Source: Oscillospiraceae bacterium (GTDB taxonomy: Bacteria; Bacillota; Clostridia; Oscillospirales; Oscillospiraceae). Taken from it: DNA of 42,861 nucleotides. The stretch spans positions 1 through 42,861 of the forward strand of contig CADBWQ010000023.1 in NCBI GenBank assembly GCA_902798545.1, written 5' to 3'. Below, one piece after another: positions 2,548 through 25,324 of the stretch; the stretch's first letter is position 1; each line of letters starts with the position of its first letter. The translations under genes were made by a program, and so were the position numbers. The notes beneath the pieces are model-generated. The model ran no database searches. It was not told the DNA's origin and saw only the letters and a program-made list of their open reading frames with translations.

Positions 2548-2559
2548 GAAGGTTATGAT

Positions 2560-6147: not shown

Positions 6148-6148
6148 C

Positions 6149-7157: not shown

Positions 7158-7171
7158 ATTACACCTCAATA

Positions 7172-7217
7172 ACAACGTTGTGTTTTGAATATTACCATAG
7201 CTCCGCAATAATGTCAA
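7172..7217 (-). promoter_or_regulatory. Promoter and palindrome of three-gene cassette
   Basis: On the minus strand a consensus TTGACA (plus positions 7,212-7,217) and TAATAT (7,189-7,194) are 17 bp apart. The perfect palindrome ACAACGTTGT at 7,172-7,181 sits at the expected transcription start, a natural site for autorepression by the HTH protein. Confidence 0.8.
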
Positions 7218-7286
7218 GATATTTTGTAGTATTATTTTTCAATTCTCGTCTTTAATGCTACTTATTCACTGTTAACCATCAAAAAA

Positions 7287-7306
7287 GGCCAGAGCTTTCT
7301 CCAGCC
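7287..7306 (-). terminator. Terminator at end of defence operon
   Basis: On the minus strand, GGCTGGAG-AAAG-CTCTGGCC (two G-U pairs) is followed by TTTTTT. It lies downstream of the 57-aa gene and before the divergent-facing cassette promoter. Confidence 0.75.
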
Positions 7307-7389
7307 TGTAAACAGCAATATAGCTCCTGAATTATCAAACGTTCAAGGCCTGAGACAAACAGCAATAGAATATCGCCCACGTTCTTATT

Positions 7390-7800: not shown

Positions 7801-8229
7801 CTATATATCAGATTTATCGAGGATTCTCTGAACCACTTGAGCCATTGTTTCTTCAAATCTGGCGCTTTTGAGTTCACATTCCCATACCGTCAGTACTTTC
7901 CAGCCAAGAGAGCGAAGCTCCTTCTGCACACGCAAGTCCCGCTCAACATTTTTCTCAATCTTGGACTTCCAGAATTCCGCATTATTCTTTGGCCATACGA
8001 AGTATCTGCATCCCTCGTGTTTATGCCAGAAGCACCCATTAACAAAAACAACTGTCTTATACTTAGGGAGAACGATGTCCGGCTTACCTGGGAGCCGGGC
8101 ATCGTTTTTCCTGTAGCGAAAGCCCCTGGAAAACAGATACTTTCGTACCTTTTCTTCCGGCTTTGTATCTTTTCCGCGTATCCGGGACATGTTGTAGCTT
8201 CGTATTTCCGGAGAATGAACATCCGCCAT
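7801..8229 (-). CDS. vsr: Very short patch repair endonuclease
   Basis: This 142-aa protein is a Vsr-type nuclease, which nicks beside T:G mismatches left by deamination of 5-methylcytosine. Motifs seen are MSRIRGKDTKPE, RLPGKPDIV with catalytic Asp at residue 51, FVNGCFWHKHEGC with H69 and H71, and WECEL. N64 replaces the His at that position of the E. coli enzyme. GAGGTG precedes the ATG at 8,229; the longer frame adds six residues. It lies 24 bases after drmC in an operon that also carries a cytosine methyltransferase, a sensible pairing. Confidence 0.92.
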   Translation of the reverse strand: MADVHSPEIRSYNMSRIRGKDTKPEEKVRKYLFSRGFRYRKNDARLPGKPDIVLPKYKTVVFVNGCFWHKHEGCRYFVWPKNNAEFWKSKIEKNVERDLRVQKELRSLGWKVLTVWECELKSARFEETMAQVVQRILDKSDI

Positions 8230-8253
8230 CGCAGTCACCTCTTGCAATAAGTA

Positions 8254-8910
8254 CTAAACCTCAACAAACACCTTATTGAACAGAAGCTTCGTAAACAGAT
8301 CATCAACCTGTTTTGCCGTTTTTCCGGAATCGATAATCACACCAAGTTCGATATTGCCTTCCTGCCCGTGGTAGGAAAGATTAGCAGATGTGATCAGCGT
8401 CTTCTGCTGATCCACACTAATCACTTTGGCATGCAGCGCGGACATTTTGTCATCCTGCTTCGGATAGTTATAGATTCTCAGGAATTTACCTTTGTACTGG
8501 CACAGACGATCAAAAGTTTGCTGACTCGCGATGTCATTGACGTAGAATTTTACAAGAACCCCTTCCTGGCTTTTCCGGATAATGCGATCTATCAAATCAC
8601 TGAAATAATCAGAGAGTGAATATCCGGTTATCAGGATACTTTTCCTTGCATTCGTGAGCATCGCATCAACCATGACCTTGGTCGGCTTCGTTTTCAGCGC
8701 AAAGGAAGGCGGCGCTGTCACAACCAGTTCAGCGCTGTCCTCACTGCCCGCAGCTGCCCCCGAAACCATAGAAAAGATCTCACGTGCTTCCTTTTCCGAA
8801 AGGGACGGGTATCTTTTCCTGATTGCCTGAACAGACTCACTGCCACCTGACAATGCGTCTGTAAGAATCTGGTTCAACAGAATATCCAGGCTTATGCTTC
8901 CAGTTGACAT
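8254..8910 (-). CDS. drmC: DISARM protein DrmC, phospholipase D-like
   Basis: This 218-aa protein has a single HKD motif (H160, K162, D167 in ALHAKVISVD, then SANLS) of the phospholipase D/nuclease superfamily and an alpha-helical N-terminus with ESVQAIRKRYPSLSEKEA. Length and position after DUF1998 fit DrmC, which is dispensable for defence in the class 2 system studied. It overlaps drmB by 19 bases. One HKD suggests it acts as a dimer. Confidence 0.85.
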   Translation of the reverse strand: MSTGSISLDILLNQILTDALSGGSESVQAIRKRYPSLSEKEAREIFSMVSGAAAGSEDSAELVVTAPPSFALKTKPTKVMVDAMLTNARKSILITGYSLSDYFSDLIDRIIRKSQEGVLVKFYVNDIASQQTFDRLCQYKGKFLRIYNYPKQDDKMSALHAKVISVDQQKTLITSANLSYHGQEGNIELGVIIDSGKTAKQVDDLFTKLLFNKVFVEV

Positions 8911-10646
8911 AATTCTTCCACCAAAGTTTTGAAATAAGCCTGATTCTCTCTGCCGTCAATCGGCACGATCAGTCCGCGATCCAGCATTCGGTTTCCATTC
9001 TCGCAGGCAGTCTCAGAAACCATGCAGCAGGAATGACAGGCGGCGCCATTCGAGTTATTTCCTGCAGGAGTATTATTCAGGCATTCGGGATCGTTTGTGC
9101 AGATCAGGGCTTCCTGGAAGGCGTCCTTCATCAGCACGATCAGCTGATCTATAGTACCGAGTTCAACAAGGCCGCCAAGAGAGCCCTCTTTGTCGGCACT
9201 TCCGGTATATAGCAGCACACCGGACATCTCATCCCCGAAATATATACGTTCCCGAATAGCGGCCGAAGAATAGCCGGAGGACATCGACATCTGCTTAATC
9301 AGCAGATGGGCAAAGGTATGCATCAGAACATACCGTGCATCTCTCAGCGTCGTGACAGTCCAGCCCTTGGATTCGCAGAATTCCTTATAGCACCGGGCAT
9401 ATTTCTGAGAAAGTTCACTCAGATTCGGATCACTCAGCCAGGCGTCAATCGTCTCTCTGTTGAATTCGATAAAGACACCTTCGCCGTGCACTTCAGCAGC
9501 GGGGAGCCACTTTTCAGTCTTGCCCCTATTCAGATAAACAATATTCTTCTGCTCATCAGCATCCGGATCCGGGGCATCTACACGGGTGAAGCCGAGCAAC
9601 ACGCGGACTTCCCTCAGACGTGTAATGCGGATCACACGCCGGAAATACGGAAGCAGATAATCCGGGAGCGGATCTTCCTCCGCTTTGAAATGCTTTTTAT
9701 TCGAGGCATACACAGGATCCGAGTGATGAGTGATAGCCTGGTATTCCATCTGTTTGATCTCTGTGAACTCCCTGATGTTTTTCAGGCGTTTCTCCAGAGC
9801 TATATCGAATTCTTCCCGCGAATAATGTGCAGCGAAGTATTTGTTGTAAATCTTCGTTACACCTTCATCGCCCCAATCCTCCTTATAATTCTCTATTAAC
9901 CTGAGATGTTCATTGATCAGATTGTAGAGCGGATTGATCCAGGGAGGAATCGAAATGGCACTCCTCATCACCGGGAAATACACATTTGAAGCACCACGCT
10001 GAGAAGGCACCATATCCTTCTCACAGTGATCATTCCTGTGATTTGGCCGGAACGGATGATGACCGTTACATTGCATACCTTCAAAATTTTCACGCTGCGT
10101 TGCTCCGCCCATGCTTCGTCTGGCACCACAGGAACATTCGACCCACATATCGGCCAGCGTAGACGTATTGCCGGTCGAGTACATACGCATTGTTCCTTTA
10201 CAGTTTGAACGGCCATTATGGACCCACCAGCTCCAGGGGAAGTCGTCCATATGTCCGTCCTCGCAGATCGTAATAAAACGAGACGGGTAAGCCGGTCTAA
10301 AGCACGACGGACAGTTCACGCCATACTTCAGATACCTGTCAAGATCAAAATTATCTCTGACATCAAAAATTCTGCCACACTTCACATTGGAACAAACATG
10401 CATATACGGAAAAGAAACGACAGGAACATCTCCGCCGGAAGACGTCCGCGGCATGTAAAAGCAGTAAACCCCCAGATAGGATGCAAGGCGGCCATCGACA
10501 ATCTTCTTTCCTTTTTCCTTCCAGTAGTTCAGATCAAGGACCGTAACGGAATCCTTTACCGCATCCACGATAGCTCCAGGCCCAAAAGTCGTTATCAGCT
10601 GATTGGGACGAATCTCACCCAGTTTATTATTGTCGAACACAGGCAT
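8892..10646 (-). CDS. drmB: DISARM protein DrmB (DUF1998)
   Basis: This 584-aa protein matches DrmB. It begins GEIRPNQLITTFGPGAIVD, has an early zinc cluster (CSNVKCGRIFD, CPSC), ICEDGHMDDFPW, and a C-terminal DUF1998 region (MHTFAHLLIKQMSMSSGYSS, YFGDEMSGVLLYT) ending in a second cysteine cluster (CHSCCMVSE). DrmB partners with the DrmA helicase, and together they bind DNA and form the core of DISARM. Its ATG overlaps the drmA stop by one base (TAATG), indicating tight translational coupling. Confidence 0.92.
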   Translation of the reverse strand: MPVFDNNKLGEIRPNQLITTFGPGAIVDAVKDSVTVLDLNYWKEKGKKIVDGRLASYLGVYCFYMPRTSSGGDVPVVSFPYMHVCSNVKCGRIFDVRDNFDLDRYLKYGVNCPSCFRPAYPSRFITICEDGHMDDFPWSWWVHNGRSNCKGTMRMYSTGNTSTLADMWVECSCGARRSMGGATQRENFEGMQCNGHHPFRPNHRNDHCEKDMVPSQRGASNVYFPVMRSAISIPPWINPLYNLINEHLRLIENYKEDWGDEGVTKIYNKYFAAHYSREEFDIALEKRLKNIREFTEIKQMEYQAITHHSDPVYASNKKHFKAEEDPLPDYLLPYFRRVIRITRLREVRVLLGFTRVDAPDPDADEQKNIVYLNRGKTEKWLPAAEVHGEGVFIEFNRETIDAWLSDPNLSELSQKYARCYKEFCESKGWTVTTLRDARYVLMHTFAHLLIKQMSMSSGYSSAAIRERIYFGDEMSGVLLYTGSADKEGSLGGLVELGTIDQLIVLMKDAFQEALICTNDPECLNNTPAGNNSNGAACHSCCMVSETACENGNRMLDRGLIVPIDGRENQAYFKTLVEELCQLEA

Positions 10647-13600
10647 TATCCCTCCGTATAATAGTACATGTTTGCAGCGCTCTCGACCTCTCTCATAGAC
10701 CGGAGCGTGGGCTTTTCAGAATCCGTGCAAACTTCGCCATAATCGTTCATCAGGCGATTGTACCTGTCGGTCTTCACGACATAGTACTTCAGCCCTTTGG
10801 TCTGGGTCGCCAGCAGTTTCCAGTTGTTTATAAAATCATCGATTTCAAGTTCTGCATCCGCTTTGGCTGAAGGTTTCACAATATTCAGCCGTTCAAAAAT
10901 AAGTGCCTTGACATCACTGAGCTGTTCCCGGGTCAACTGAGCTATGGCAGCCGCTCCATCATTATCAGCAAAAGCCGGGTAACGCAGCCGAATTGCCGAT
11001 ATGATCAGTGCATGCAAGACCCGGTCCCTTGCACGGGCAGAAAAAGGTGTCGCCGTTGTACCTTCCACGAACCGATAAAGCTGGGAATGATAGCCGGTAA
11101 AATTCTCATAATGTGAGAGGTCCCTCGGACGATACGGGTTATACAGGGTAACAACAAGGCCGGGGAAAGAACGCCCGATACGGCTGGTCGCCTGAATATA
11201 CTCAGAATTCTGCTTCGGCTGGCCTGTCACGACCATCAGGCCCAGGCGGTCCACATCCATACCAACGGCAATCATGTTGGTGGCGATGGCGGTATCCAGG
11301 CACTCCCGTGAAGTGCACGGCGTTTCCAGCTGGCTCAGCTTCTTTGGAATATCGTATGAAGACATGCGTGAAGTAATTTCCACCTTATGATTAAGGAAGC
11401 GCTGTTTACTCATCCCATATTTTTTCTTAATCCGCTGAATTCTGTCAGGAATGTCATCCTGCAGCAGACGTACTGCGCCGCCAAGCTCACGTATACTGTT
11501 GTAATACCCGACAAGACTGTAGTAGGGATCAATGAAATCCCTGTACTCTTCCTTCAATGAAAGATCATACGCACTCTGCAGAATAATGGCATATACACGC
11601 AATAAAGCCGTCTTTACAGACTGGCCCGGTGCACTGACCCCAACATACCTTCTGAACGGCTCCTCTTCAACGGACACCTCCCGAATAAAAAAGCTGTCGC
11701 CAATTTCAAAACCGTTAGGCGGGAACTGGGCGGTCATCTTTCTGCCGTACAGGCATTTTGTCTGTTCAGCCGCATTCTTTATGGTAGCCGTGGAAACGAC
11801 ATATTTGGGTTTTATCTTTCTGCCGCCGGCAGTATATGTGCAAAGATCCTCGATTACCGTTTCATATGCTCCATAAATCGTTCCCAGTGGCCCGGTGATC
11901 AAATGCAGCTCATCCTGGATGATCAGTTCCGGCGGAAGGAACGGTTTTACCATGGTCAATGTGGATGCCGGAAGCTCTTCCGTACGACGATGGCGGGCAT
12001 GATCAGCGCCGACAGCAACGTAGCCGTCACGGCTGCAGACTCGGTCCACGCGGCCAAACAAAGCATTCGTATTTACATCCCACGGTAAACGTGCAAACTT
12101 ATCAACCGTAGACAGGATAATCGTCGGGCACCTGGCATAGATTTCCTCATCCACCAGATACACCGGTATCTTCATCTTGTTGTGCGATTTATACCTGTAG
12201 AATTCACAGTCCTTATCAGGACAATAGATGCTGACCGATTTTGTCGGAATATCGATATAGTAATTCTCTTCCTTGAGCGGTGTTCCGCAGTACGGGCAGG
12301 CAAGAAGCTGTCTGTAAATCAGTTTTTTCTTTCTTCTGGCTGCTGCCGTTTTCTCCTGATCCTCAGGATCCTCTTTCAATTCCTCAAAGGTATTCGGCGT
12401 AACACCACCGCCGACCCAGAAGCCGATGCTGATGGGCTCTTTCCCATATTTTGGCCAAGTCTTCTGACGAATCAACTCCGCAGCCACAATCATTTTCGTA
12501 ATACGATCACGCTGCTGCGTGGTAAGAAGGCGCAGGGTGTAGCGCAGGATGGCCGTCACACCGCCGTCACGATTGTATTCGTCACTCTCATCTGCGCGCA
12601 GCCTTCTATTGGCAATCGCAAAAGCCATGAGGCCCAGATATGCCTCGGTTTTGCCACCGCCGGTCGGGAAGTACAGCAGATCAACGACTTCCCGGTCTTC
12701 ATGCTCCGGATCCACAATTGCGTTCAGATTCATGAGAATAAAGGCAATCTGGAAGGGCCTCCAGCCGAAATTATTCTCGGGATTGCGAGGATCGATAAAG
12801 TCCGTCAAGCAGCATTCAATCCCCTTGCCATGCTTTCTGGAGAAATTCATAATATTCCTCTGAAGGATCATCACCCGGTTCATAAAGCAGAAGGCATCAA
12901 AAGCAATATCGTCATTCACCAGCAGCTGAATACCGGCGCGGATCCTTCCAAGAGCCTCCTGACATTTGGCAACAACAGGATCACCAATCCCGCTTTTGAA
13001 TGCGGCATCACTCATTTTGGGGTCCTGTACCAGCTTATCCTGAATCCAGGCTGCGTAGGAATCCGCCAGAACATTCAAACGGGCAATTATTTCATCCTTT
13101 TTCTTCGCAATGGACAGCGTCCGCATCGAAAAGTAAAAACGGTCAAAGCCCTTCAGTTCTGCGCTCACCCCCGGAATCTCATATTCCGGGATAAACGTGG
13201 AGAATATCTCAGAAGCACGTCCCTCTGCATTGGCTTTCCAGGTTGCAGCACATCCGCGTCCCCTGCCCAGAATGGGTCTCTGAGCAAAATAGTATTCATC
13301 GGGCGCTATGATCTGCCTGCAAATGTGCTCCGCCACAAAAATGTCCGATTGATCCGGGGAATATGCACGCAGACTGACCTGGAACATCATTCCTTCAACA
13401 TCATTCGACGGGTTTCTGCGTCTGTTGACAATATATGCCGTAACAAATGTAAAACCCTGTTTCAGTTCTATCCTTGAGACATGGAGAACAACATTCGAAT
13501 CAATAACCAGAGGATATTCCCTGCTCCTGGCAAATTCCTGCATATCAATCACAACTGTCTCATTCTGCGGGTGGCGGGTATATGTATTTTTGCTGATTTC

Positions 13601-13984
13601 TTTCCCGTCCCTGTTCACAATTTTATCAGACGATTTCGTATAATCGCCCCAGGATATATCCATACAGAAGGACCTGGTTACGCTCTCCAGATAGAAACTG
13701 ATGCCAATAGAAGACGGTGTTTTAAAATGCAGGACCGAAACGGGCTCATTGTCATCCTCTTCACCGGCAGTATAATCAGCATCCCCTTCATGAGAGGCAT
13801 CTTCATCGATTTCCTGCTCACTGGAACCTCCTTCGCTGGCCTGCGGTGCGAGCATGCCCACGATATATTCAGAACACGGACTTTGGCTCAGTATTTCGTT
13901 TTCGCTGCCTGGCCCCAGCAGGTCTCTCTTCAGCATTTCGATGATTTCCTGACGGACCCCGGCGTACCTGAATCTGTCTGCCAT
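10646..13984 (-). CDS. drmA: DISARM helicase DrmA
   Basis: This 1,112-aa protein has an N-terminal RDLLGP...EYIVGMLAP signature, Walker A PTGGGKT at 440-446, a zinc cluster (CPYC near 563, CPDKDC near 588), a DEAH-like box QDELH at 690-694 and a motif VI SRIGR at 933-937. This is the superfamily 2 helicase of DISARM that, with DrmB, engages incoming phage DNA. GGAGG precedes the ATG. It starts 13 bases after the drmD stop. An acidic stretch (51-80, Glu/Asp-rich) resembles the unstructured trigger loop region reported for DrmA; that equivalence is my inference. Confidence 0.92.
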   Translation of the reverse strand: MADRFRYAGVRQEIIEMLKRDLLGPGSENEILSQSPCSEYIVGMLAPQASEGGSSEQEIDEDASHEGDADYTAGEEDDNEPVSVLHFKTPSSIGISFYLESVTRSFCMDISWGDYTKSSDKIVNRDGKEISKNTYTRHPQNETVVIDMQEFARSREYPLVIDSNVVLHVSRIELKQGFTFVTAYIVNRRRNPSNDVEGMMFQVSLRAYSPDQSDIFVAEHICRQIIAPDEYYFAQRPILGRGRGCAATWKANAEGRASEIFSTFIPEYEIPGVSAELKGFDRFYFSMRTLSIAKKKDEIIARLNVLADSYAAWIQDKLVQDPKMSDAAFKSGIGDPVVAKCQEALGRIRAGIQLLVNDDIAFDAFCFMNRVMILQRNIMNFSRKHGKGIECCLTDFIDPRNPENNFGWRPFQIAFILMNLNAIVDPEHEDREVVDLLYFPTGGGKTEAYLGLMAFAIANRRLRADESDEYNRDGGVTAILRYTLRLLTTQQRDRITKMIVAAELIRQKTWPKYGKEPISIGFWVGGGVTPNTFEELKEDPEDQEKTAAARRKKKLIYRQLLACPYCGTPLKEENYYIDIPTKSVSIYCPDKDCEFYRYKSHNKMKIPVYLVDEEIYARCPTIILSTVDKFARLPWDVNTNALFGRVDRVCSRDGYVAVGADHARHRRTEELPASTLTMVKPFLPPELIIQDELHLITGPLGTIYGAYETVIEDLCTYTAGGRKIKPKYVVSTATIKNAAEQTKCLYGRKMTAQFPPNGFEIGDSFFIREVSVEEEPFRRYVGVSAPGQSVKTALLRVYAIILQSAYDLSLKEEYRDFIDPYYSLVGYYNSIRELGGAVRLLQDDIPDRIQRIKKKYGMSKQRFLNHKVEITSRMSSYDIPKKLSQLETPCTSRECLDTAIATNMIAVGMDVDRLGLMVVTGQPKQNSEYIQATSRIGRSFPGLVVTLYNPYRPRDLSHYENFTGYHSQLYRFVEGTTATPFSARARDRVLHALIISAIRLRYPAFADNDGAAAIAQLTREQLSDVKALIFERLNIVKPSAKADAELEIDDFINNWKLLATQTKGLKYYVVKTDRYNRLMNDYGEVCTDSEKPTLRSMREVESAANMYYYTEG

Positions 13985-13997
13985 ATGATGCCTCCTC

Positions 13998-16616
13998 TCA
14001 GAATTTCAATACAATGTTGATCAGAAGGTACGGATTAATCTCCTGCGTCTGATTGAAACGATCTATTTCTCTCTGTGCTTCATCCCGGATTTCTTTGGTG
14101 CGCTTCGGAAGCTCCTGCTGCAACTTATCCATTTTTTTCTTTGCTTCGGCAGCTTTCTTCCGTATATCCTGCTTTTCCAGGCTGTCCACAGCCATCATTT
14201 CAGCAGACAAAAGCTCCTCAACCTCAGTTCTGGCATCGTCAAGATGTACCTGCAGCTGATCCAGCTGGACCCCGATCCAATTCTCGATCTTCTTTTTGTT
14301 GTAGGCAATGACCGGTGCCACCGCCCTGTCATGCTTTTCCCGTGCTTCCGATATCAGGCGATCGTAAATGCGGCGATAAAACGCCTCTTCCGAATCCGTC
14401 GGGGTAAAGAAGTGAATGTCCCTGTCGTCAGCCGCTTCCAAAGCGGAAACCAGATCGTCTTCCGGGAAATTGATATAATCACCATGTTCATCACAGAGCA
14501 GAAGAACCGGGTAGAGAAACCTGTTACTGTCCATAAATGCGCCGAGGAACAGGACACCATTGGCGCCAAATACCTTTTCGCCCCAGTTGTCGATCTGCCA
14601 GTAATACAGATTGCGATCCATCGGAGGTTCTTCAAACTTATCCCAGTATGCGACGTCCCGGAGATACCGGTCGATTTCCGCTTTGGTTTTTTCCAGAGCC
14701 TCCCCTTTTGCCTCTCTGCTCTCCGTCAGAAGGATTGAGCGAAGTTCTGCAGCACGCACATTTTTCCTTGCATCCAGCTGACGATTCAAGTCAGCAAACG
14801 CTTTCCTGACAGCTGTTATATTTTTGCAGTTCTGGTATATGTCAAAGATTCGCTTTTCAAAACTTACACCGGATTCCAGAGCCCCCAGAGCCACATCGGA
14901 CGCACCGAAAACGCCTTCAAACAGTTCGAATTTCTTTGACAGGATCTCATACACTCGCCGATCCGCCTCATTGTCCGTATTGAGGAGGTTTACAGCGACA
15001 ACATCATGGGTTTGTCCATAACGATGGCAACGGCCGATACGCTGCTCAATTTTCTGCGGGTTCCACGGCAGATCATAATTGATCACCGTGTTGCAGAACT
15101 GAAGATTCAGGCCTTCAGAACCGGTATCCGTAACAATCAGTACTTTGGCATGGTCCCTGAAATAATCAACAATGGCATGCTTGTATTCCACACTTTTGCC
15201 GTAGTTCGTCTTTCCGAAATTCTTGATCTGCCAGGCTCTGAAGATTTCCTTCGTCATGGCATCATCAAAATCGCCGTTAAACAGAAGGATATCTTCTTCC
15301 ATGTAACCGTTCTTTCTGAGCTCTTCGGCAATATACTTCTGTGTGCGTTTGGATTCCGTAAAGACGACAGCCTTCTGCGCCAGCCCCTCAGACGCCTGAT
15401 GCTCAAAAGCAGAGGTCAGCGCGGTTTTCAGCGCCGAGATTTTCGCATTCGTCTTAATTGACCGGGCAGTTTCAAGTATATGCCTTACCGTCCTGAGTTC
15501 CGCCTGAATCGCCTGCTTCTTCTCCGCGGTCTCCTCGTCATCGTATTCGTTGAAGCCATCCTCATCAATCTCGTCCTCGACAAATGCCCAGAACAAATCA
15601 AAACCTTCCTGGGCATATGCGGATTTTGTTCCTTCCTTCAGTTTCTCCAGACGTTTTTCCAGGATTTCGAAGGTTTCAATCAGGGCAAAACTCGAAGATG
15701 CCAGCAGCTTGCGGATAACCAGAATAATCAGCCCGCGGTTGGCATTCGGAATGGAATAAAGCTGCTCCTGCCGGAGGAACTCATTCGTCGTGTCATAAAG
15801 CTCCTTTTCTTCCTGACTCAAATGGAAATCCACCGTCACACAGGTTCGCTTACTGAAAGACATGTACTTTCCGACATCACGGCGTAATGTACGATACAGT
15901 ACCGGGAGCAGCTCCCGTTTCAGCTCTTCATAGTCACCGCCCTCCACAAATCGCCGGTTAAAGACTTTTTCAGATCCAAATATCCGCGGATCGATAAAGG
16001 AAACGAGCCCGTGCAGATCCGTCAGGGCATTCTGCAGCGGCGTGGCGGTGAGCAGAATCTTGGGAATGCCCCGCGTCAGATCATAAAGATTTCTGGCACG
16101 CTTGGCACCATGAAACACATTGCGCAGGTTGTGTGCCTCATCGATGATCAGGAAATCCCACTTCACATGCGGGAACTGACGGATCAGCTTTGAGGAGAAA
16201 TCATAGGACGCAATAACAATGCTTATTTCACCGGTATTCTCAAGCCGGCGCTGAATATTGACGCGGTCACGGTCCACCGTATACCTGTCCAGAATAATCG
16301 CCTGACGACCGAATTTTTCCTGGAGTTCCACTTCCCACTGCTTTCTCAGGGTTGCAGGAAGAGAGATCAGCACCTTTTTCGCGCCATTGTCCAAGACATA
16401 ATTGAGCACCAGACCGGCTTCAATCGTTTTTCCCAAGCCAACTTCGTCGGCAAGAATGATTCCACCGGTTTTCAGAGCCTGAATCGCCGCACAGAACGCG
16501 TTGATCTGATGAGGATTCGGTTCGATATCCGCATTCAGCAGGCAACTATACGGAGACTCGGCCAGCTGCTGCCTTTTATACCAGCTGTACTGTTCCAGCA
16601 GAACATTAGTTTCCAT
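13998..16616 (-). CDS. drmD: SNF2-family helicase, DrmD-like
   Basis: This 872-aa protein has SNF2 motifs: Walker A ADEVGLGKT at 56-64, DEAH at 159-162, LTATP, and a C-terminal helicase core with QRIGRCHRYGQ. A long coiled-coil region precedes the C-terminus. DrmD is the SNF2 helicase that defines class 1 DISARM. The start at 16,616 has GAGGGAGGG upstream; the longer frame to 16,730 lies inside the methyltransferase gene. The gene overlaps that methyltransferase by 11 bases, so the class 1 helicase and a cytosine methyltransferase are coupled. Confidence 0.88.
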   Translation of the reverse strand: METNVLLEQYSWYKRQQLAESPYSCLLNADIEPNPHQINAFCAAIQALKTGGIILADEVGLGKTIEAGLVLNYVLDNGAKKVLISLPATLRKQWEVELQEKFGRQAIILDRYTVDRDRVNIQRRLENTGEISIVIASYDFSSKLIRQFPHVKWDFLIIDEAHNLRNVFHGAKRARNLYDLTRGIPKILLTATPLQNALTDLHGLVSFIDPRIFGSEKVFNRRFVEGGDYEELKRELLPVLYRTLRRDVGKYMSFSKRTCVTVDFHLSQEEKELYDTTNEFLRQEQLYSIPNANRGLIILVIRKLLASSSFALIETFEILEKRLEKLKEGTKSAYAQEGFDLFWAFVEDEIDEDGFNEYDDEETAEKKQAIQAELRTVRHILETARSIKTNAKISALKTALTSAFEHQASEGLAQKAVVFTESKRTQKYIAEELRKNGYMEEDILLFNGDFDDAMTKEIFRAWQIKNFGKTNYGKSVEYKHAIVDYFRDHAKVLIVTDTGSEGLNLQFCNTVINYDLPWNPQKIEQRIGRCHRYGQTHDVVAVNLLNTDNEADRRVYEILSKKFELFEGVFGASDVALGALESGVSFEKRIFDIYQNCKNITAVRKAFADLNRQLDARKNVRAAELRSILLTESREAKGEALEKTKAEIDRYLRDVAYWDKFEEPPMDRNLYYWQIDNWGEKVFGANGVLFLGAFMDSNRFLYPVLLLCDEHGDYINFPEDDLVSALEAADDRDIHFFTPTDSEEAFYRRIYDRLISEAREKHDRAVAPVIAYNKKKIENWIGVQLDQLQVHLDDARTEVEELLSAEMMAVDSLEKQDIRKKAAEAKKKMDKLQQELPKRTKEIRDEAQREIDRFNQTQEINPYLLINIVLKF

Positions 16617-17895
16617 GGCGGTACCCTCCCTCATCCAAAACCGTTCTGATCCCTCTGGCAATGGCTTTCGCCATGAGCGGAGGGACCGCATTTCCGATCT
16701 GAACAAACTGAGAAGTTCGGGGCCCTTCAAAGAAATAACTGTCCGGGAACGACTGGATTCTCGCAGCTTCCCTTACTGTGATGGAGCGGTGCTGTTCCGG
16801 ATCCGGATGGATAAAATAATGCCCGTCTTTTGATATATGCGCCAGCATCGTGTGACAGGCGGTCTCATCGCCCTCGACCACCTTGAACCGGTCCAGGAAG
16901 GATTCCCTGTTTTTATGTGTCTTCAGCTCTTCCGGCAGGTCATTATAGTTCAGCCGCTTGTGACCATCGCGCCACAATGCAATCGCATGTTTATAAATCT
17001 CTATATCTCTTTCCTTATTGGGTCTGGCCTGATGGAGCGTCAGAACATCGTCGGGCACCCGGATACCGGTTCTGGAAAGGTAGGTACAGATTTTCTCACT
17101 CCGGTATTCCGTACCATTCTCCCCTGGAAGCAAAGCCGGCAGATCATCCAGCAGTTTGCGAACCCGGGTTTTCGGATCCATTGTTTTGAATTCCGGATAG
17201 CGCAGACCGCTGTCTTTCAGCCAGCCTACTATAATCATTCGCCTGCGGTTCTGCAGAACGCCGAAGTCCCTGGAATTCTGATCCCTGCACTCGATATAAT
17301 AGCCGACACGCTTCAGATACTTCTGAATATTCTTCCAGGTTTTCCCTCCGTTGGCGGTTTTTATCCCCATGACATTCTCAAACACAAACATCAGCGGGCG
17401 ATATCTTGTCAGGAATCTTGCGTAAAGCTTATACAGATCCTTTCGCGGATCCTCTTCCATGGGGGTCTCCATATGACTGTTCTGCGCACGACCAACCATG
17501 GAATAGGCCTGGCAGGGCGGACCGCCTATGATCACATCGACCGTTTCGCGGCCTCCTGCAGCAAGCAGCCCATCTATTTTTGCAAACAGGCCGGGCAGGG
17601 TTTTCACCGACATGGTTTCACAGATAACAGAATTCAGGCATTCATCCGGGACCTCTGACAGAAGCTCCTCCCGCGAAATATTTCCTTTAAGATACTCATA
17701 ATACAGGTTCAGCCGCCCATGGGATTCGAGCCAGTAATATGCGGTTCTGGTTTCCAGCGATTTTGCCGCATAAGGATTCATCTCCACATGCGCGACAGGC
17801 GTAAAGCCCGCCTGGATGAATCCCTCCGAAAGTCCACCGGCCCCGGCAAACAGATCTATGAAATTGTATTCATTCCGTGCATCTCTCCGTGGCAT
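16606..17895 (-). CDS. DNA cytosine-5 methyltransferase
   Basis: This 429-aa enzyme has the full set of C5-methyltransferase motifs: I (DLFAGAGGLS, 14-23), IV (GPPCQAYS, catalytic Cys128), VI (ENV, 173-175), VIII (QNRRRM, 215-220), IX (RSITVREAARIQSFPD) and X (QIGNAVPPLMA). A roughly 65-residue insert between motifs II and IV resembles that of DISARM DrmMII-type enzymes. It should mark host DNA against DrmABD. The target-recognition region lies around residues 240-360; the sequence motif recognised cannot be told. GGAAGG precedes the ATG; the gene is 25 bases after Res. Confidence 0.9.
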   Translation of the reverse strand: MPRRDARNEYNFIDLFAGAGGLSEGFIQAGFTPVAHVEMNPYAAKSLETRTAYYWLESHGRLNLYYEYLKGNISREELLSEVPDECLNSVICETMSVKTLPGLFAKIDGLLAAGGRETVDVIIGGPPCQAYSMVGRAQNSHMETPMEEDPRKDLYKLYARFLTRYRPLMFVFENVMGIKTANGGKTWKNIQKYLKRVGYYIECRDQNSRDFGVLQNRRRMIIVGWLKDSGLRYPEFKTMDPKTRVRKLLDDLPALLPGENGTEYRSEKICTYLSRTGIRVPDDVLTLHQARPNKERDIEIYKHAIALWRDGHKRLNYNDLPEELKTHKNRESFLDRFKVVEGDETACHTMLAHISKDGHYFIHPDPEQHRSITVREAARIQSFPDSYFFEGPRTSQFVQIGNAVPPLMAKAIARGIRTVLDEGGYRHGN

Positions 17896-17920
17896 GGATT
17901 ATACCCTTCCGCTTTATATT

Positions 17921-20818
17921 TCAGTCTTCAAACACGCCGTCCGTATCAAAGATGTGATCCAGTTCATCCGTGCTGATGGCCGCCAAGACCTTGTTCCGAA
18001 TGATGCCGCTTGTCAGATTCAGTCTTTTGAACCTGTTCTTTCCGGCAGCGTCCTTCCCGACACGGATCAGCTGAATCCGGTCAATGCGCGGTTCCTCTGC
18101 AGCATACTGAGCAAGACCTTTCGCCTTGCCTAGATTGTCCTTGAAATCCGGATTATGCGGTTCCAGAACATCCAGCAGATACCCCAGTTCCGGATCCCGG
18201 CGAACAATGATAAAATCCGGAAATAGCTCTCTGCACTTTCCTTCCATCTCATACGGAATGCGGAGTGACCAGGACTGGCGCGAAGGATTGCGCAGCCAGC
18301 ACACAAAGTCCGGGCGTTTCTGTTCCTCCGCGAGAACAGCCAGCTCCCACCCATTGAGCTTTATTTTTGCGATCCCTTCCGGATTTGCAAACAGATGATC
18401 ATAGAATTCCGTTCCGCCAGCATCTTCCTTTGCGCTGATGGTTTCCGGCAACGTGAAATTGTGCTTACTGATTTCATCACCGTCAGCAACAATATCGCTA
18501 TACTGCTTGCGGCATTTTTCCGGTTTCACAGCAATATATTTGCGGTACTGATCATTCAGCTCATGAAACTTCTTCTCGGCATACCGGTTCAGATCCACAA
18601 TGCACTCACTGTCAAAAGCATAAAGAATACAGTCGATTTTGAATGCATTCGGATTTTCAAAGTCAATATACTTCCGGCCATACGCCAGATGGAACCCGCA
18701 TCCGCCCATTTTGGCATCGGCAACCCGGAGCTGCCGGTCAAGATCCGACTCGGAAGCAGCAAACAGATCAACCTGGGTATCCGTGTGAAGCGCCTCACCG
18801 AACACATCGAAGATCTGCACAGACAGTTTCATCTCCAGGACCTGCTTCTTCAGCTCATCATATTTGCCGTCCTCATGAAGCTTTGCAACATATGTGTGTA
18901 TCATTTCAGCCACATCGTTTTTCACATCCTCTGTGGCAGTCACACAGATGTTGAACTGGGAAAGCAGTCCGGCCAGGCTCACCAGAGATTTCAGATAGCT
19001 GTTAATCTTGACAGAGCGTACCATATAGGTCAGGTAGCCCTGCTCATTGATGAATTTCGTTATCCCTTCCCGGTCTATGGACGGAAAAACAGAGGTCTGA
19101 GGCACTTCCGGCGAAAGCTCAGGCTCATCCTCAGGCGTTTTAAGACCAGACTGACCTGCTGCCTTGCCGGCACCACTGTCCGTACCAATCGCCGGCACAG
19201 TTTCAGCCGGCTGCCCGGTCTGCTGAGCCGAAACACCTGTCTTCGCCGCAGTATCCACAGGTGTTTCGGTCCGTCCAGATGCGGGAGCCTCCGCCCCTTT
19301 CCCTTCCGGATCAGACGCCTGTTTCCCCGCAGCGGCAGGCACGCCGTCAGCAGGATCACTCATCTCACCGTTCAGATCACCAAACATACTCAGCTGTCCC
19401 GCCATCTGCTTCGGCTCTTTCTGTTTCGCAGTATGAACAGTCCAGGTCGTCCAGGTCTGCGTCTCAAGAGATTCCCCGTCCACGACCGTCGGAATCTCGC
19501 CGCCTTCCGAAGACTGCAATTCATCTATGACCTTCTTTACGTTATCCTGGTTGAAATACGGCAGGAACAGACGGACTTCATTCAGAGAATCGTCGACAAC
19601 GACATGGCACTGGAGCGGGGTACGCACCATACGGCCCAGCAGCTGCGCAATGTATGTCGCATCCTCCGCTTTCCGGAACGACATCATGGTTTCCGCGCGA
19701 GGGCAATCCCAGCCGGTGGAAAGATTTTCCTTGAACAGGACAACGCGAATGCGGTGATCTTCCGCAATATCCGAAGGCTCGACATGCGGCACATTCAGGC
19801 CATGGATTGTCAGTGTACCGGTAGACCCAAAGGTATGAACCACTTCATGTTCCCTAAACGTCGAACCTATCCGTTCCTCAGTTTTCGCAATCACATCATC
19901 AAGGTCCGTATCCGAAATCTTATTGCCAGAACCGGCGCATACCTGGATCACAAACACCGGGTCTACATTCTGATAATGCTGCTCATAGGTATACTGATGC
20001 CAGTGTCTGCACTTGTCCTGCCATTCATCCGTGGCAGCCTGCAGCACCGCCATATCGCCGTGTCTGGCCGGGTCTTCCGGATACGTTATGACAATCCGAT
20101 CCTTCAGGAGTCCGGACTGGCGCACCTGGGCAGCAGAAACAGCCACCTTGTGCAGCGTGGAACTGGTCCCCCTGCCAACGAGCGCATCAAACCGCTCAGC
20201 CGTTGCACTCATACCGATCACAACCGGGAGCGGAGAGATCTGTGGATCCGCACAGCCCTTGATAAAGCGCTGCATGATGGTCGTGGCAGTGCCGGCCTGA
20301 CGCCCCTGCATGCCACGATGGGCTTCATCAATGATGAAATACAGACGATCAGACTTCAATCGTGCCGTGTTTTCAATCGTCTCCCAGATGGTGAACTGAC
20401 GCGTATCCGAATGACGGCTCAGGTTTGCACCCTTGCCCAGCTTCTGGGTATTCAGGAAGTAAATATGACCATCGTCCAGAACTTCCTGATCAAAGGACTC
20501 GTCTGTGATCACAACACACTGGCCAATGCGGATCTTATCCGCCTTCTGCTCAATTTTCTGTCTGGACTGCTCATTCAGCTGCGGCGAATCCGAAAGCCAG
20601 ACGAAAATGGCATCCTGCTGCTCGGTAAACTGATCCGAGCCAAAGAAAATGTCTTCAATCAGGGCAGACATGATAATGGTCTTGCCCGATCCCGTCGGTG
20701 CCTGAAGCGAAACAACCTGAGGCACTTTCAGCATTCTGTAGTTATTCAGGGCCAATGCCGTACGAAAGCGCAGCTCATTGACGGCCTGCTTCTGGAAAGA
20801 GAACAATTCACAAATCAT
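17921..20818 (-). CDS. Type III-like restriction helicase (Res)
   Basis: This 965-aa protein has Walker A APTGSGKT (40-47), DEAH (164-167), SAT near 204 and a motif VI QLLGRMVRTP (392-401). Residues about 465-580 form a low-complexity Ala/Pro/Glu linker that starts with QLSMF (475-479), a match to the beta-clamp-binding consensus. The C-terminus has a nuclease-like PDF (867) followed by DVLEPH (883-888), where type III enzymes have E-x-K; the Lys is replaced by His, so cleavage activity is uncertain. It starts two bases after Mod and so pairs with it, as in type III systems. Confidence 0.85.
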   Translation of the reverse strand: MICELFSFQKQAVNELRFRTALALNNYRMLKVPQVVSLQAPTGSGKTIIMSALIEDIFFGSDQFTEQQDAIFVWLSDSPQLNEQSRQKIEQKADKIRIGQCVVITDESFDQEVLDDGHIYFLNTQKLGKGANLSRHSDTRQFTIWETIENTARLKSDRLYFIIDEAHRGMQGRQAGTATTIMQRFIKGCADPQISPLPVVIGMSATAERFDALVGRGTSSTLHKVAVSAAQVRQSGLLKDRIVITYPEDPARHGDMAVLQAATDEWQDKCRHWHQYTYEQHYQNVDPVFVIQVCAGSGNKISDTDLDDVIAKTEERIGSTFREHEVVHTFGSTGTLTIHGLNVPHVEPSDIAEDHRIRVVLFKENLSTGWDCPRAETMMSFRKAEDATYIAQLLGRMVRTPLQCHVVVDDSLNEVRLFLPYFNQDNVKKVIDELQSSEGGEIPTVVDGESLETQTWTTWTVHTAKQKEPKQMAGQLSMFGDLNGEMSDPADGVPAAAGKQASDPEGKGAEAPASGRTETPVDTAAKTGVSAQQTGQPAETVPAIGTDSGAGKAAGQSGLKTPEDEPELSPEVPQTSVFPSIDREGITKFINEQGYLTYMVRSVKINSYLKSLVSLAGLLSQFNICVTATEDVKNDVAEMIHTYVAKLHEDGKYDELKKQVLEMKLSVQIFDVFGEALHTDTQVDLFAASESDLDRQLRVADAKMGGCGFHLAYGRKYIDFENPNAFKIDCILYAFDSECIVDLNRYAEKKFHELNDQYRKYIAVKPEKCRKQYSDIVADGDEISKHNFTLPETISAKEDAGGTEFYDHLFANPEGIAKIKLNGWELAVLAEEQKRPDFVCWLRNPSRQSWSLRIPYEMEGKCRELFPDFIIVRRDPELGYLLDVLEPHNPDFKDNLGKAKGLAQYAAEEPRIDRIQLIRVGKDAAGKNRFKRLNLTSGIIRNKVLAAISTDELDHIFDTDGVFED

Positions 20819-20820
20819 AT

Positions 20821-22932
20821 TCAGTTCCTCCCTGCGCTCAGGCGGAAATGATCAAGATAATCTCTGTAAAGCTGGTAAGACTGCTCCACGTTCAGATTCT
20901 TCACCATGGAACGGTAATTCACTTCATAATCCGTTGCCAGGAAGACCGTCTGTATCTCCGGATGCTCCGCCAGCGCTTCCTCAAATGCCGCAAAGGCCTG
21001 TTCATTCACCAGAACAGCAAATCTGTTCTCCGGAAGGATCAACATGTCCGGATTCTGACCATCAGCCAGTTCATGGCATTTGCCAACACATCCGGCTTTC
21101 ATCCAGAGAACCGGGAGCATTTCCTTAAACTGCATCCCTAAAGAAACAGCCGTTTTATCCAAGAAGCCAAGCTGGAAGAATGCAGCATTCGCCCTGAACC
21201 CATCCGCCATTGGAAGATCACTGCCAAGATAATTGCCCTTCAGAGGTTCCCCTTTCACATCATGTCCCTCAATCGAGCATACTGTACGAGGCCAGGTAAC
21301 ATACCTGGCTATGCCCAATTTGTCCCACTCCTCATCACCTGGAAGATGGCCTTCAGCAGTAAGTGTCTTTGCTTCTGCCTCGGACACTTCATTGTTCGTC
21401 ACCATGATGCAGCGTCGATGCCCACCATCCTCGGCATTCAGAAGATTTACTGCATGAAGCGTGGTGCCAGAGCCAGCGAAGAAATCAATGATGAGGGCGT
21501 TAGGCTTGTTCGCAACAAAGAATCTAATAGTATCGTGCACTGCGTACAATGATTTTGGGAAACTAAACCTTGCCTCACCAAACATTTTATTAATCATCTG
21601 TGAACCTTGATATGTCGCATCATGAGATTCAATATTCCATTGAGAACCTGGTACAAACTCATGCTTATAATCAGAAGAATCTACTATTACCGTATTATTT
21701 GGGCCCTCATGCCCAATGACTAAGACATCTTTGCTATCGATCTTCTGAATGCTTCCGCGTTTTAAATATGAGACTGGAATGGTATTATCCTTCATTTTAC
21801 CTGTTTTAACATAACCGCTTTGAAGTCGCTGTGCAAGTTCGCTCTGCGACAGCTGCCATCTGCCTTCAATGCCAGATTCTTTTATTGGCCAAAGCTGGAT
21901 ATAATCGTCAAATACTTCCAAGGCCCCCGAAGGATGTTCGCTTAGCGGAAACAAGGCTTCACCAAAACCTACTATTTTAGTTCCTTGCCTGTTGAACTTA
22001 ATTGGATAGAATAGATTTGGAGAATCAGTTCTCAAATCACCTGTGCCACTCCTTCTTAATTGAGACCAAACAATTCCTTTAGCAGCAGCACTCTCATTTT
22101 TGCCGAGTTGCCACTGTGCATCAAGAGGCAGGGGAACAACTGTTGACTCCCCCATTTGCACCATAAACAGGTACTCATTCGTTCTATAAAATGAATCTTT
22201 TCGATAGACTCCTTTTTGAGCAATTATAGAACTAACCATTTGAACATTAGCCTCCGGGAACATCTCCTCCAGCAAGCACCCCAGATGCAAATACTCCTTC
22301 TCATCAATCGTGACAATCAGCACAGAATCTCTTGGATTCAGTAGCTTTTTCGCCAGCTTCAGCCGTTTCTCCATAAACGACAGCCACTTGCTGTGCCTGT
22401 AAGTATCGGAACCATCCACATAGTCGTTGTTGTACTTCCAGTCCCTTGCTCCCGTGTTATACGGCGGATCAATGTAGATGCAATCCACTTTGCCTGCATA
22501 GAGATATTCCAGCAACTGCAGCGCATGATAGTTATCCGCCTCGATCAGCGCATGCCAGAGATCGCTGTCCGGGGCATTGCACACGCTGTCCAGCGGTTTC
22601 AGGTACGGATATATTGGATCCCCAAACTCCGCAATCGTAACGAGGCTCTCGACCGGAAGCTCCACAGCCTCGGTTTCTCCACGCTTTAAACAGACAACCT
22701 TCCCATCTTTCAGACGCAGAACCCGCCAGAAATCATCCACGCTGCCGGCCTTCAGCGCGACCTTTGCCCCTGGTTTGACAGGAATATCATAAAGAGGCGT
22801 GCATTCCGGCAGATGCTCCTCAAAAACCAGGCCAAACTTCTTCTGTTTTGCGAGTTTATCGACTTCCTTCTGGATTCTGTCCCGCAGATCGGGATCAGCA
22901 ATCTGCCTGACAAGATCATTAATCGCAGCCAT
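20821..22932 (-). CDS. Type III-like adenine methyltransferase (Mod)
   Basis: This 703-aa enzyme has motif IV DPPY (155-158, in YIDPPYNTG) before motif I FAGSGT (485-490, in IIDFFAGSGT), the beta-class order of type III Mod subunits. The region between (about 225-475) is the target-recognition part and its DNA is clearly richer in A+T than the flanks. It is the first gene of the defence operon, with GGAGG before the ATG and a promoter 76 bases upstream. In class 1 DISARM an adenine methylase (DrmMI) sits beside drmD; this gene may fill that role or serve the adjacent Res. Confidence 0.87.
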   Translation of the reverse strand: MAAINDLVRQIADPDLRDRIQKEVDKLAKQKKFGLVFEEHLPECTPLYDIPVKPGAKVALKAGSVDDFWRVLRLKDGKVVCLKRGETEAVELPVESLVTIAEFGDPIYPYLKPLDSVCNAPDSDLWHALIEADNYHALQLLEYLYAGKVDCIYIDPPYNTGARDWKYNNDYVDGSDTYRHSKWLSFMEKRLKLAKKLLNPRDSVLIVTIDEKEYLHLGCLLEEMFPEANVQMVSSIIAQKGVYRKDSFYRTNEYLFMVQMGESTVVPLPLDAQWQLGKNESAAAKGIVWSQLRRSGTGDLRTDSPNLFYPIKFNRQGTKIVGFGEALFPLSEHPSGALEVFDDYIQLWPIKESGIEGRWQLSQSELAQRLQSGYVKTGKMKDNTIPVSYLKRGSIQKIDSKDVLVIGHEGPNNTVIVDSSDYKHEFVPGSQWNIESHDATYQGSQMINKMFGEARFSFPKSLYAVHDTIRFFVANKPNALIIDFFAGSGTTLHAVNLLNAEDGGHRRCIMVTNNEVSEAEAKTLTAEGHLPGDEEWDKLGIARYVTWPRTVCSIEGHDVKGEPLKGNYLGSDLPMADGFRANAAFFQLGFLDKTAVSLGMQFKEMLPVLWMKAGCVGKCHELADGQNPDMLILPENRFAVLVNEQAFAAFEEALAEHPEIQTVFLATDYEVNYRSMVKNLNVEQSYQLYRDYLDHFRLSAGRN

Positions 22933-23007: not shown

Positions 23008-23036
23008 ATTATAATCACAATCCCATGCAAAGTCAA
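23008..23036 (-). promoter_or_regulatory. Sigma-A promoter of the defence operon
   Basis: On the minus strand, TTGACT (plus positions 23,031-23,036), 17 bp, TATAAT (23,008-23,013). Start is expected near 23,001, giving a leader of about 70 nt. No other comparable promoter was seen between the nine genes down to 7,485. Confidence 0.85.
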
Positions 23037-23184: not shown

Positions 23185-24450
23185 CTAACAGTCTCTTCTC
23201 AACAGCGGGTTATCCAAGATAGGTTTCTTTATTTGGTCTCCTCTTTTTTCCACACCATTTTCACTAACTATTCTGTAGACAGTAAAACCATTTTTCATAT
23301 CCTTATTCGCACTTTGCCGAATACTACTTATATTTGCATCCTTATAAGCAGCAAATGTATTACTTGTTAACCGTAAACCAGTAGGGCCCACATACTGATA
23401 AACCAAGCTGGAATCCTTGTCATATTTGTTTGTATATACTGCGTACCTACACACTGGATTGCCTGAATATCCTCTTAACGTCATGTAACCTTCTACGAAC
23501 TGATCCACACATACATCCAAGGCCACCAAAGAAGTCCATCCTGGTGCGCGTCCCCAATTCCCCATCAAGTCATCGATACCTGCTTCGTCACACGATAACC
23601 TGGTGAAAAAAGTGCTGATATCATCAACCATCGGACTCTCGCTGCTTTTGCAAAAAACACCGGCCTGGAATATAGCATCCTTATTTAACTCTTTCACTTT
23701 GAACTGAGAATATGTCTCTTCTATCAGATTGTATCCATTTTCCTGCAGCGCCAATAACCACCCGTAAAACATGGGGTCAATATTGCATCTCTCAGCGCTA
23801 ATAAGATACCCATCATCTGAGACCAGTTTTGCCAGGACATCACTATATGGTTTTATCAATTGTTTATGTCCTCTGCTTAACTCAATAAGTGAATACGACA
23901 TATCCAGAGAACCATTCTTCACGTTTTCATGCATCGTACGGCTTGAGAAAACCGTATCGTACCGGCCTGTGAGCTTCAAAACATCCGCTCTCCGGAAAGA
24001 AACATTCCGTATGCCCATTTTATCGGCCATTGTCTGCGCCACTTTGATTGACTTATCGTATTTATCTACAGATGTAATCTGCTTATCCGGGAACAGGCGA
24101 CCAAGGAAACATGAAACAAGACCGATGTCACATCCTACTTCCAGGATGGTATCACCGAAGTATTGTTCATTATTCTGTATCCATTGAAACAGCCTTGACA
24201 GATAATTGTAGTCATAGCCACCTGTAAATGTCACTGCAAAATCATAGTTTGCATTTTTCTTATTATATAAAGTTTTATCCAATCCTTCTGCATTTTCGTG
24301 CCGTGCCTCAATTATCTTCTTGACCTGCAGATAATTGGAAGCTCCTCCGACAGCCTCACACCGCGGATACAGGGCTTCCAAACTATCGGCAGGATAAATT
24401 CCAATCTCGGAAATAAACGAATCAACAAACTCCAGTTCATTACTCTTCAT
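23185..24450 (-). CDS. SAM-dependent methyltransferase of ATPase unit
   Basis: This 421-aa protein has a Rossmann methyltransferase core: motif I ILEVGCDIG (102-110), motif II SVDKYD (127-132), then RADVL and a DTVFSSR strand. The N-terminal 80 residues and the C-terminal 170 are not recognised; there is no DPPY or PCQ motif, so a DNA base target is not indicated and a protein, RNA or small-molecule target is as likely. GGAG lies seven bases before the ATG at 24,450. It is the last gene of a three-gene AT-rich operon behind the ATPase. Confidence 0.8.
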   Translation of the reverse strand: MKSNELEFVDSFISEIGIYPADSLEALYPRCEAVGGASNYLQVKKIIEARHENAEGLDKTLYNKKNANYDFAVTFTGGYDYNYLSRLFQWIQNNEQYFGDTILEVGCDIGLVSCFLGRLFPDKQITSVDKYDKSIKVAQTMADKMGIRNVSFRRADVLKLTGRYDTVFSSRTMHENVKNGSLDMSYSLIELSRGHKQLIKPYSDVLAKLVSDDGYLISAERCNIDPMFYGWLLALQENGYNLIEETYSQFKVKELNKDAIFQAGVFCKSSESPMVDDISTFFTRLSCDEAGIDDLMGNWGRAPGWTSLVALDVCVDQFVEGYMTLRGYSGNPVCRYAVYTNKYDKDSSLVYQYVGPTGLRLTSNTFAAYKDANISSIRQSANKDMKNGFTVYRIVSENGVEKRGDQIKKPILDNPLLRRDC

Positions 24451-24472
24451 ACTAGTTCTCCAATAGATCATT

Positions 24473-25309: not shown

Positions 25310-25324
25310 CTGACAACGCCCTCA

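Follow-up and report, generated by a model that had tools for sequence, protein, structure and literature searches.

A probable DISARM variant in which a type III restriction-modification pair may hold the position of the second methylase

The stretch of DNA analyzed here (the window) comprises positions 1-42861 of a contig from an Oscillospiraceae bacterium. From 22932 down to 7801, its minus strand carries a compact operon of eight genes, which read 5′ to 3′ in the order Mod, Res, DrmMII, DrmD, DrmA, DrmB, DrmC and Vsr. We consider it probable that this operon is a variant of the defence island system associated with restriction-modification (DISARM), in which the position of the second methylase is held by a complete and exchangeable type III restriction-modification (R-M) module.

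Composition and classification of the operon

An open frame exists for each of the eight genes within the interval given in a preliminary description of this DNA, all lie on the minus strand, and every junction is either an overlap or a gap of at most 25 nucleotides (nt). Mod (20821..22932, 703 amino acids) is a predicted type III DNA methyltransferase that matches the PADLOC MTase_III model PDLC03645 with 586 bits over residues 2-701. It is followed after 2 nt by Res (17921..20818, 965 amino acids), a superfamily 2 (SF2) helicase with a C-terminal PD-(D/E)XK-like domain, which gives the weakest profile call of the eight: ResIII (PF04851) matches with 56.8 bits (cut-off 22.5), and PADLOC REase_III matches only weakly (E 3e-9). 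After another 25 nt comes DrmMII (16606..17895), a cytosine-5 methyltransferase (PDLC02649, 536 bits; PF00145, 196 bits), which overlaps by 11 nt with the gene for the SNF2 helicase DrmD (13998..16616). This protein is of the DrmD_b type (DISARM_DrmD_b NF038318, 1350 bits, cut-off 950); its start was placed at 16616 from the starts of relatives, and the frame could reach 16730. DrmA (10646..13984), a YprA-type SF2 helicase of the short form (DISARM_DrmAS NF038325, 1274 bits, cut-off 950), lies 13 nt further on and overlaps by 1 nt with DrmB (8892..10646), a DUF1998/MZB protein (NF038324, 591 bits, cut-off 240; MZB PF09369), which in turn overlaps by 19 nt with the phospholipase D-type nuclease DrmC (8254..8910). 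DrmC is strongly matched by PADLOC (PDLC02616, 306 bits), scores 115 bits with the NCBIfam model, under its cut-off of 133, and has the motif H-x-K-x4-D, which is present in 17/17 rows. Vsr (7801..8247; TIGR00632, 155 bits, cut-off 98), a T:G mismatch endonuclease, likely begins at the ATG at 8229, and given that start the gap to DrmC is 24 nt. Frames, profiles and gaps, together with the recurrence in 18 of 19 loci described below, confirm the tight eight-gene operon of the preliminary description. Its composite character, in which two methylases are combined with three motors of the helicase type (Res, DrmD and DrmA), is likewise supported and recurs in relatives.

According to the PADLOC rules as excerpted from their publication (PMC9252829; all papers are cited here from partial texts), type I DISARM combines DrmA-D with DrmMI and lacks DrmE, and type II has DrmMII and DrmE. 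The window has DrmA, DrmB, DrmC and DrmD, of which DrmC is strong in PADLOC and under the NCBIfam cut-off. There is no DrmMI model among 24 families for Mod or among the matches listed for the other seven proteins. DrmMII is present, DrmE is not seen among the matches listed, and all operon genes are otherwise assigned; among the matches listed, the profile search for DrmA-E, DrmMI and DrmMII proposed in the preliminary description recovered DrmA-D and DrmMII. For DISARM in the wide sense, the core trio of DrmA, DrmB and DrmC is present together with a DNA methylase. As judged from its sequence, the operon is neither PADLOC type I, lacking DrmMI, nor type II, lacking DrmE, yet it plainly has a DISARM core. 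As for type III systems, Mod is a methylase of the beta class with DPPY, an S-adenosylmethionine (AdoMet) motif and a recognition region, and Res has an SF2 helicase domain that scores above the PF04851 cut-off.

With class 1 DISARM (Serratia and the plasmid examples) the window has in common DrmA, DrmB, DrmC and an SNF2 DrmD, and with some members also a cytosine methylase and Vsr, but it has no DrmMI-type (PglX- or MmeI-like) methylase, its DrmD is of the DrmD_b type, and a type III Mod-Res pair is added. With class 2 DISARM (DrmE, DrmMII and DrmA-C) it shares DrmMII and DrmA-C, whereas no DrmE was seen and DrmD and Mod-Res are present. A DPPY Mod with a variable recognition region and an SF2-helicase Res are features common to the window and to type III R-M systems such as EcoP15I and Mbo45V; here, however, the pair is joined to DrmA-D and DrmMII, and Res has the motif PD...EPH and no sequence match in the PDB.

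The preliminary description had regarded the company of drmD and a 5-methylcytosine (m5C) enzyme as unusual. This pairing is ruled out as the novelty, because the class 1 DISARM operon of Serratia has both an m5C and an N6-adenine methylase (PMC9142583), and the plasmid class 1 systems of Deinococcus (L076) and Microvirga (L080) have annotated DrmD, an MmeI-type enzyme, a cytosine methylase and Vsr. Rather, the distinctive feature of the operon is the predicted type III Mod-Res pair that stands in for a DrmMI-type methylase. The DrmD_b gene family is already recognized, since NCBI has a DrmD_b model. In the literature searched, which consisted of open-licence papers in partial text, we found no description of a type III pair as a part of DISARM; Bell 2025 reports many uncharacterized DISARM-like classes, and the excerpt of that paper mentions no type III R-M pair (PMC12458937). 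Within this literature, the operon would be a previously undescribed DISARM variant.

Recurrence and exchange of the type III pair

Relatives of the operon were gathered by DrmA searches, not by Mod or Res, with the window and genome G361 as seeds; both seeds carry Mod-Res, and G361 was found through the DrmD model. The 19 loci obtained are a sample rather than a census. They comprise the window, 11 relatives from a scan in which each species was represented by a single genome (the scan used just two peptide patterns, which matched 62 stretches), 3 viral contigs and 4 loci from further genome searches, and their DrmA subfamily is defined by ~47% or more identity to the DrmA of the window. Two of the loci (L052 and L053) are from near-identical strains, and L055/L039/G361 (one genome) and L058/L139 (one contig) are counted once each.

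A type III Mod-Res pair is present in 18 of the 19 loci, in two arrangements. Gut bacteria related to that of the window thus share the combination, two named carriers being Butyrivibrio proteoclasticus P6B7 and Anaerovibrio sp. RM50. The alpha order, Mod-Res, DrmMII, DrmD, DrmA, DrmB, DrmC, is found in 7 loci (the window, L047-L051 and L058). The beta order, DrmMII, DrmD, Mod-Res, DrmA, DrmB, DrmC, is found in 11 (L052-L055, L057, L068, L071-L073, L123 and L124; the stretch of L068 ends within DrmD, and its DrmMII lies outside), and the Mod and Res of these loci belong to a family unrelated to the alpha pair. In the gap table, which covers 15 of the 19 loci (all except L053, L056, L123 and L124), the junctions of 8 of the 11 beta loci were measured: Mod-Res is set between DrmD and DrmA with gaps of at most 17 nt or overlaps, except in L073, where it follows 194 nt after a shortened DrmD whose frame lacks the C-terminus. 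Vsr lies 3′ of DrmC in 8 of 18 evaluable loci, L049 ending inside DrmC. The Mod of L054 is divided between two frames; a repeat tract was considered as the cause and rejected, as no tandem repeat was found.

The nineteenth locus (L056) has only a Res-beta fragment, which adjoins an IS110-type transposase, and in every locus of the set (19/19) this DISARM core is accompanied by a type III pair or by a remnant of it. When 291 genomes were sampled, a DrmD of this type (~1131 bits or more) and a DrmA of this subfamily turned up in exactly the same four genomes, and a viral-contig scan by DrmD alone yielded 5 stretches that matched a pattern, none of them a relative. Among the open reading frames (ORFs) of 14 loci with a distant DrmA (L125-L138; 29-41% identity in the best segment), there was no match to the Mod or Res queries (0/14), a test that type III pairs unlike these queries would escape and in which several loci end early at contig ends. 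No Mod or Res was found in two more loci of this kind (L069, L070).

The position of Mod-Res in the beta loci has a counterpart in plasmid DISARM. In 5 of 6 such regions, an annotated adenine-type methylase (PglX, MmeI or 'DNA methyltransferase') occupies the same slot between DrmD and DrmA; the region L079 has no annotated DrmD. Some beta loci also have additional genes upstream. A DUF2326-type ATP-binding cassette (ABC) ATPase precedes the DISARM variant in L071, L123 and L124 (Pfam tested in L071 only), and in Ruminococcus flavefaciens a second DrmB-like protein (31-32%) is encoded upstream of DrmMII (L052 1-1449, L053 1-1620), perhaps as part of a second DISARM-like operon next door.

The two methylases of the operon differ in how they vary. 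Mod has the motif order of beta-class methylases, DPPYNTG and then FFAGSGTT with a variable middle, and the motifs are invariant in 7/7 alpha rows; its PDB relatives are Mbo45V, a Mod (6k0w) and the Mod of EcoP15I, and the Mod-alpha profile matches 7dsu, 6k0w and 4zcf. Across the seven alpha rows, mean pairwise identity is 28% in residues 236-455 versus 72% and 63% in the flanks, a pattern that would be the usual sign of changing recognition. DrmMII, whose motifs DLFAG, GGPPC, ENV and GNAV are present in 15/15 rows, has no divergent block, its lowest 25-residue bins being ~0.45-0.48 in the alpha rows with the C-terminal tail left out. Because the recognition block of Mod diverges and DrmMII has no such block, we infer that a steady m5C mark may be combined with a changeable type III mark. 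N4-methylcytosine (m4C) is a possible product of type III Mods (PMC8259958), and this Mod is predicted to make either N6-methyladenine (m6A) or m4C, between which sequence alone cannot tell.

The PADLOC DrmD model at E <= 0.001 matches all 14 controls as well as 330 of the 398 genomes scanned, and therefore only high scores were used; at 1e-120 it matches no control. Below DrmD_b there is a gap in score, and then, at ~630-720 bits for whole genes, come the SNF2 proteins of SNF2-Mod-Res triads. In Bacillota we inspected 13 loci with such an SNF2 gene, 7 from the 398-genome scan (two with broken genes and lower scores) and 6 from another scan; in the former, all 7 genomes at ~345-702 bits were inspected, and the range covered stops above 209 bits. 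Mod adjoins the SNF2 gene or lies within one gene of it in 13/13 (L118 is cut by a contig end), Res follows in 12/12 evaluable loci, and no DrmA, DrmB or DrmC was found in the stretches around them. For plasmid SNF2 matches, 8 records were inspected, chosen among the 20 matches listed from a total of 958, and 7 of them have both a methylase and a Res gene (DEAD/DEAH or type III) annotated nearby; in L088 the methylase and Res-like gene lie among insertion sequences, and the Thioclava record (L083) has neither.

In the SNF2 tree (quick method), the DrmD_b proteins of DISARM are sister to the triad SNF2 proteins and class 1 DrmD is far away, and in the Res tree, Res-beta groups with some triad Res, the triads using at least three Res families. 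Taken together, the gene neighborhoods and these trees indicate that type III pairs are regular companions of the SNF2 proteins in this clade and that the pair is exchangeable. The free triads, which occur in Bacillota genomes and on plasmids of several phyla, are like the window in having a DrmD_b-like SNF2 protein near a type III pair and unlike it in that no DrmA, DrmB or DrmC was found in the stretches examined. Annotation pipelines may label such triads as DISARM DrmD: the SNF2 proteins of L084 (9962-12808) and L040 (3208-6090) score ~700 bits with the PADLOC model. The L084 protein, the only one tested with NF038318, scores 720 bits, and the cut-off of 950 would exclude it.

Pairs of the alpha family also occur on their own. 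Plasmid relatives of Res-alpha are two-gene systems (L074, L081 and L082; 3 of 32 plasmid records inspected), and genome G144 (L103) has a stand-alone pair with Mod in several frames, flanked on both sides (2195-3163 and 11880-12908) by transposase-like ORFs with HTH_38 and a weak rve (integrase core) match. In L104-L107, alpha-family Mod-Res lies beside ABC-three-component (ABC-3C) genes, with DUF2326 in all and CTD11 in the three tested; these genes stand directly before the pair in L104 (8335-16254), L105-L107, L148-L152, L154-L157 and L159, and represent another system using the same type III cassette. The 22 viral-contig loci with an alpha-family pair divide into 1 with this DISARM, 10 with ABC-3C genes and 11 with neither in the stretch examined. 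Three of the stand-alone loci were tested for phage genes, and each has them beside the pair: L140 and L143 encode a DNA polymerase and an exonuclease, L140 an endolysin as well, and L145 a DNA polymerase. An integrase is found in two others tested (L144, L147).

In the Res-alpha tree, the seven DISARM sequences form one clade (100/99), which is sister to the stand-alone L140/L142 and sits inside a larger set of stand-alone systems. Because it is nested within stand-alone, partly phage-borne systems, the alpha pair at the head of the operon was probably captured from free type III systems. The DrmA+DrmB tree (17 of 19 loci), with an outgroup of six further DISARM-type loci, splits first into a group of beta loci only and a group in which both orders occur. 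Because of this split, and because the beta order is also that of the free triads, the beta order looks ancestral and the alpha order derived.

Proposed function and alternative explanations

The helicase motifs G[SA]GKT and DEAH are present in 13/13 Res-alpha rows, as is PD...[ED]PH in the C-terminal part, which is preceded three residues earlier by an aspartate (12/13) and followed by an invariant lysine in the next helix (13/13). A model of the C-terminal domain, with a predicted local distance difference test score (pLDDT) of 74, shows the succession of strands and helices that a PD-(D/E)XK fold should have, and its best fold matches, which are weak, are to TnsA (the top one, E 0.015) and to Cas4-type proteins, which are PD-(D/E)XK nucleases. 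These sequences and this model suggest that the domain is likely a nuclease.

In the mechanism that we propose, host DNA would be marked by DrmMII (m5C) and by Mod (m6A or m4C). Enzymes of the EcoP15I type cut near unmodified sites after moving along DNA, and Mod-Res might find an unmodified site on incoming DNA, move along and make the first cut. DrmD, an SNF2 motor of a kind found alongside type III pairs, could then remodel or clear this DNA, and DrmAB would load on the ends made by Mod-Res, leading to unwinding and to degradation with DrmC. Vsr would repair T:G mismatches left by deaminated m5C, limiting mutation there. We infer that cutting by Mod-Res may in this way feed DrmAB and DrmC. 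In Serratia, DrmAB has a preference for unmodified DNA carrying 5′ overhangs, and its ATPase activity is lower on m5C DNA (PMC9142583). A bolder proposal, which we offer only tentatively, is a machine working in two stages, with the type III pair as its interchangeable targeting head. The pair would cut unmodified DNA at directed sites and so load DrmAB, and the SNF2 proteins of the DrmD_b/triad clade would be general adaptors between type III modules and the machinery downstream.

Several observations weigh against a DISARM variant with a complete type III module. Res-alpha has [ED]PH in place of the canonical ExK, a sequence search of the PDB with it gave no match, the AlphaFold model of the whole protein is poor (pLDDT 43), and Foldseek returned no match to the domain model at E <= 0.001. 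Whether Mod and Res sit apart from DISARM in relatives, a point raised in the preliminary description, depends on the direction of the search: in the 19 loci the DISARM core has the pair or its remnant, as described above, but 21 of the 22 viral-contig loci of the alpha family are without DISARM, and no DISARM core was present in the stretch for the 5 of 7 further genome matches that were inspected (all except G086 and G258). The number of swaps is also unsure, the five-gene tree (16 of 19 loci) giving one change with weak support (65/68) and the DrmA+DrmB tree giving two changes for alpha. Finally, one promoter driving the operon is presumed from sequence. A promoter-like site, TTGACT-17-TATAAT (23008..23036, minus strand; an 11/12 consensus match only), lies ~75 nt upstream of Mod. 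It is suggestive only, because the scan returned 37 promoter-like sites, versus 19.8 (standard deviation 4.8) in shuffled sequence, and because a second 11/12 site lies on the plus strand within drmA.

The main rival explanation, which we regard as unlikely, is that two independent defence systems share a promoter and are kept together by joint regulation and transfer. Such an arrangement is consistent with the Mod-Res relatives that stand alone, lie amid phage genes or adjoin ABC-3C genes, and an island insertion did bring a type III system into the DISARM of Cutibacterium acnes (PMC7365801). That insertion broke drmMI (PMC7365801), however, whereas the eight genes of the operon are all whole. 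Moreover, the pair is placed inside the operon, between DrmD and DrmA, in 11 loci, it has been exchanged for an unrelated one and yet kept (18/19), and the type of DrmD matches the partners of type III pairs and not class 1 DrmD.

It is quite improbable, in our view, that Mod alone matters, replacing DrmMI as a second self mark read by DrmAB, and that Res is a passenger or regulator without cleavage. The missing ExK and weak fold match of Res-alpha would fit this explanation, as would the beta order, in which Mod-Res takes the place of the adenine-type methylase. Nevertheless, both types of module bring Res along with Mod, and across one set of six alpha relatives the conservation of Res comes close to that of DrmA (66-79% versus 67-83% identity to the window). 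Every Res-alpha row retains the helicase motifs and PD...[ED]PH, and the five aligned DISARM Res-beta rows have PDF...EVK. The idea that Mod and Res are merely chance neighbors of DISARM is rejected by the association kept in 18 of 19 loci.

Genomic surroundings and implications

A terminator-like hairpin (7286..7307, minus strand; 9 pairs and a T-rich tail, a consensus match only) lies 3′ of Vsr. Upstream of the operon is a block of low G+C content (0.37-0.42) at 23185-26857 on the minus strand, which is probably another defence operon; it encodes an AAA_15/DUF3696 ATPase that scores 211 bits with PADLOC NsnB, a product that resembles NsnC weakly and an S-adenosylmethionine-dependent methyltransferase. 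Downstream, at 4807-7217 on the same strand, are genes for a helix-turn-helix protein, a small protein and a 446-amino-acid protein matching PADLOC BnzB (202 bits), possibly a further defence system. The window also encodes an S24-type regulator (1687-2547), an SRAP protein (2560-3225) and a Phage_lysozyme2 and peptidoglycan-binding protein (39908-40732, minus strand), and the island may be phage-derived.

How a DISARM attack starts, what DrmD does and what the second methylase contributes are questions on which this operon bears. Because the second methylase is here predicted to belong to a type III module, and such modules are a known general class of site-specific cutters, operons of this type could serve as direct test systems for these questions. 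They would show if DrmAB is set off by a programmed cut, if each of the marks protects on its own and if a cassette swap alters the target. If the type III pair is indeed an interchangeable targeting head, then the specificity of DISARM would change by cassette swap while the m5C self mark stays fixed.

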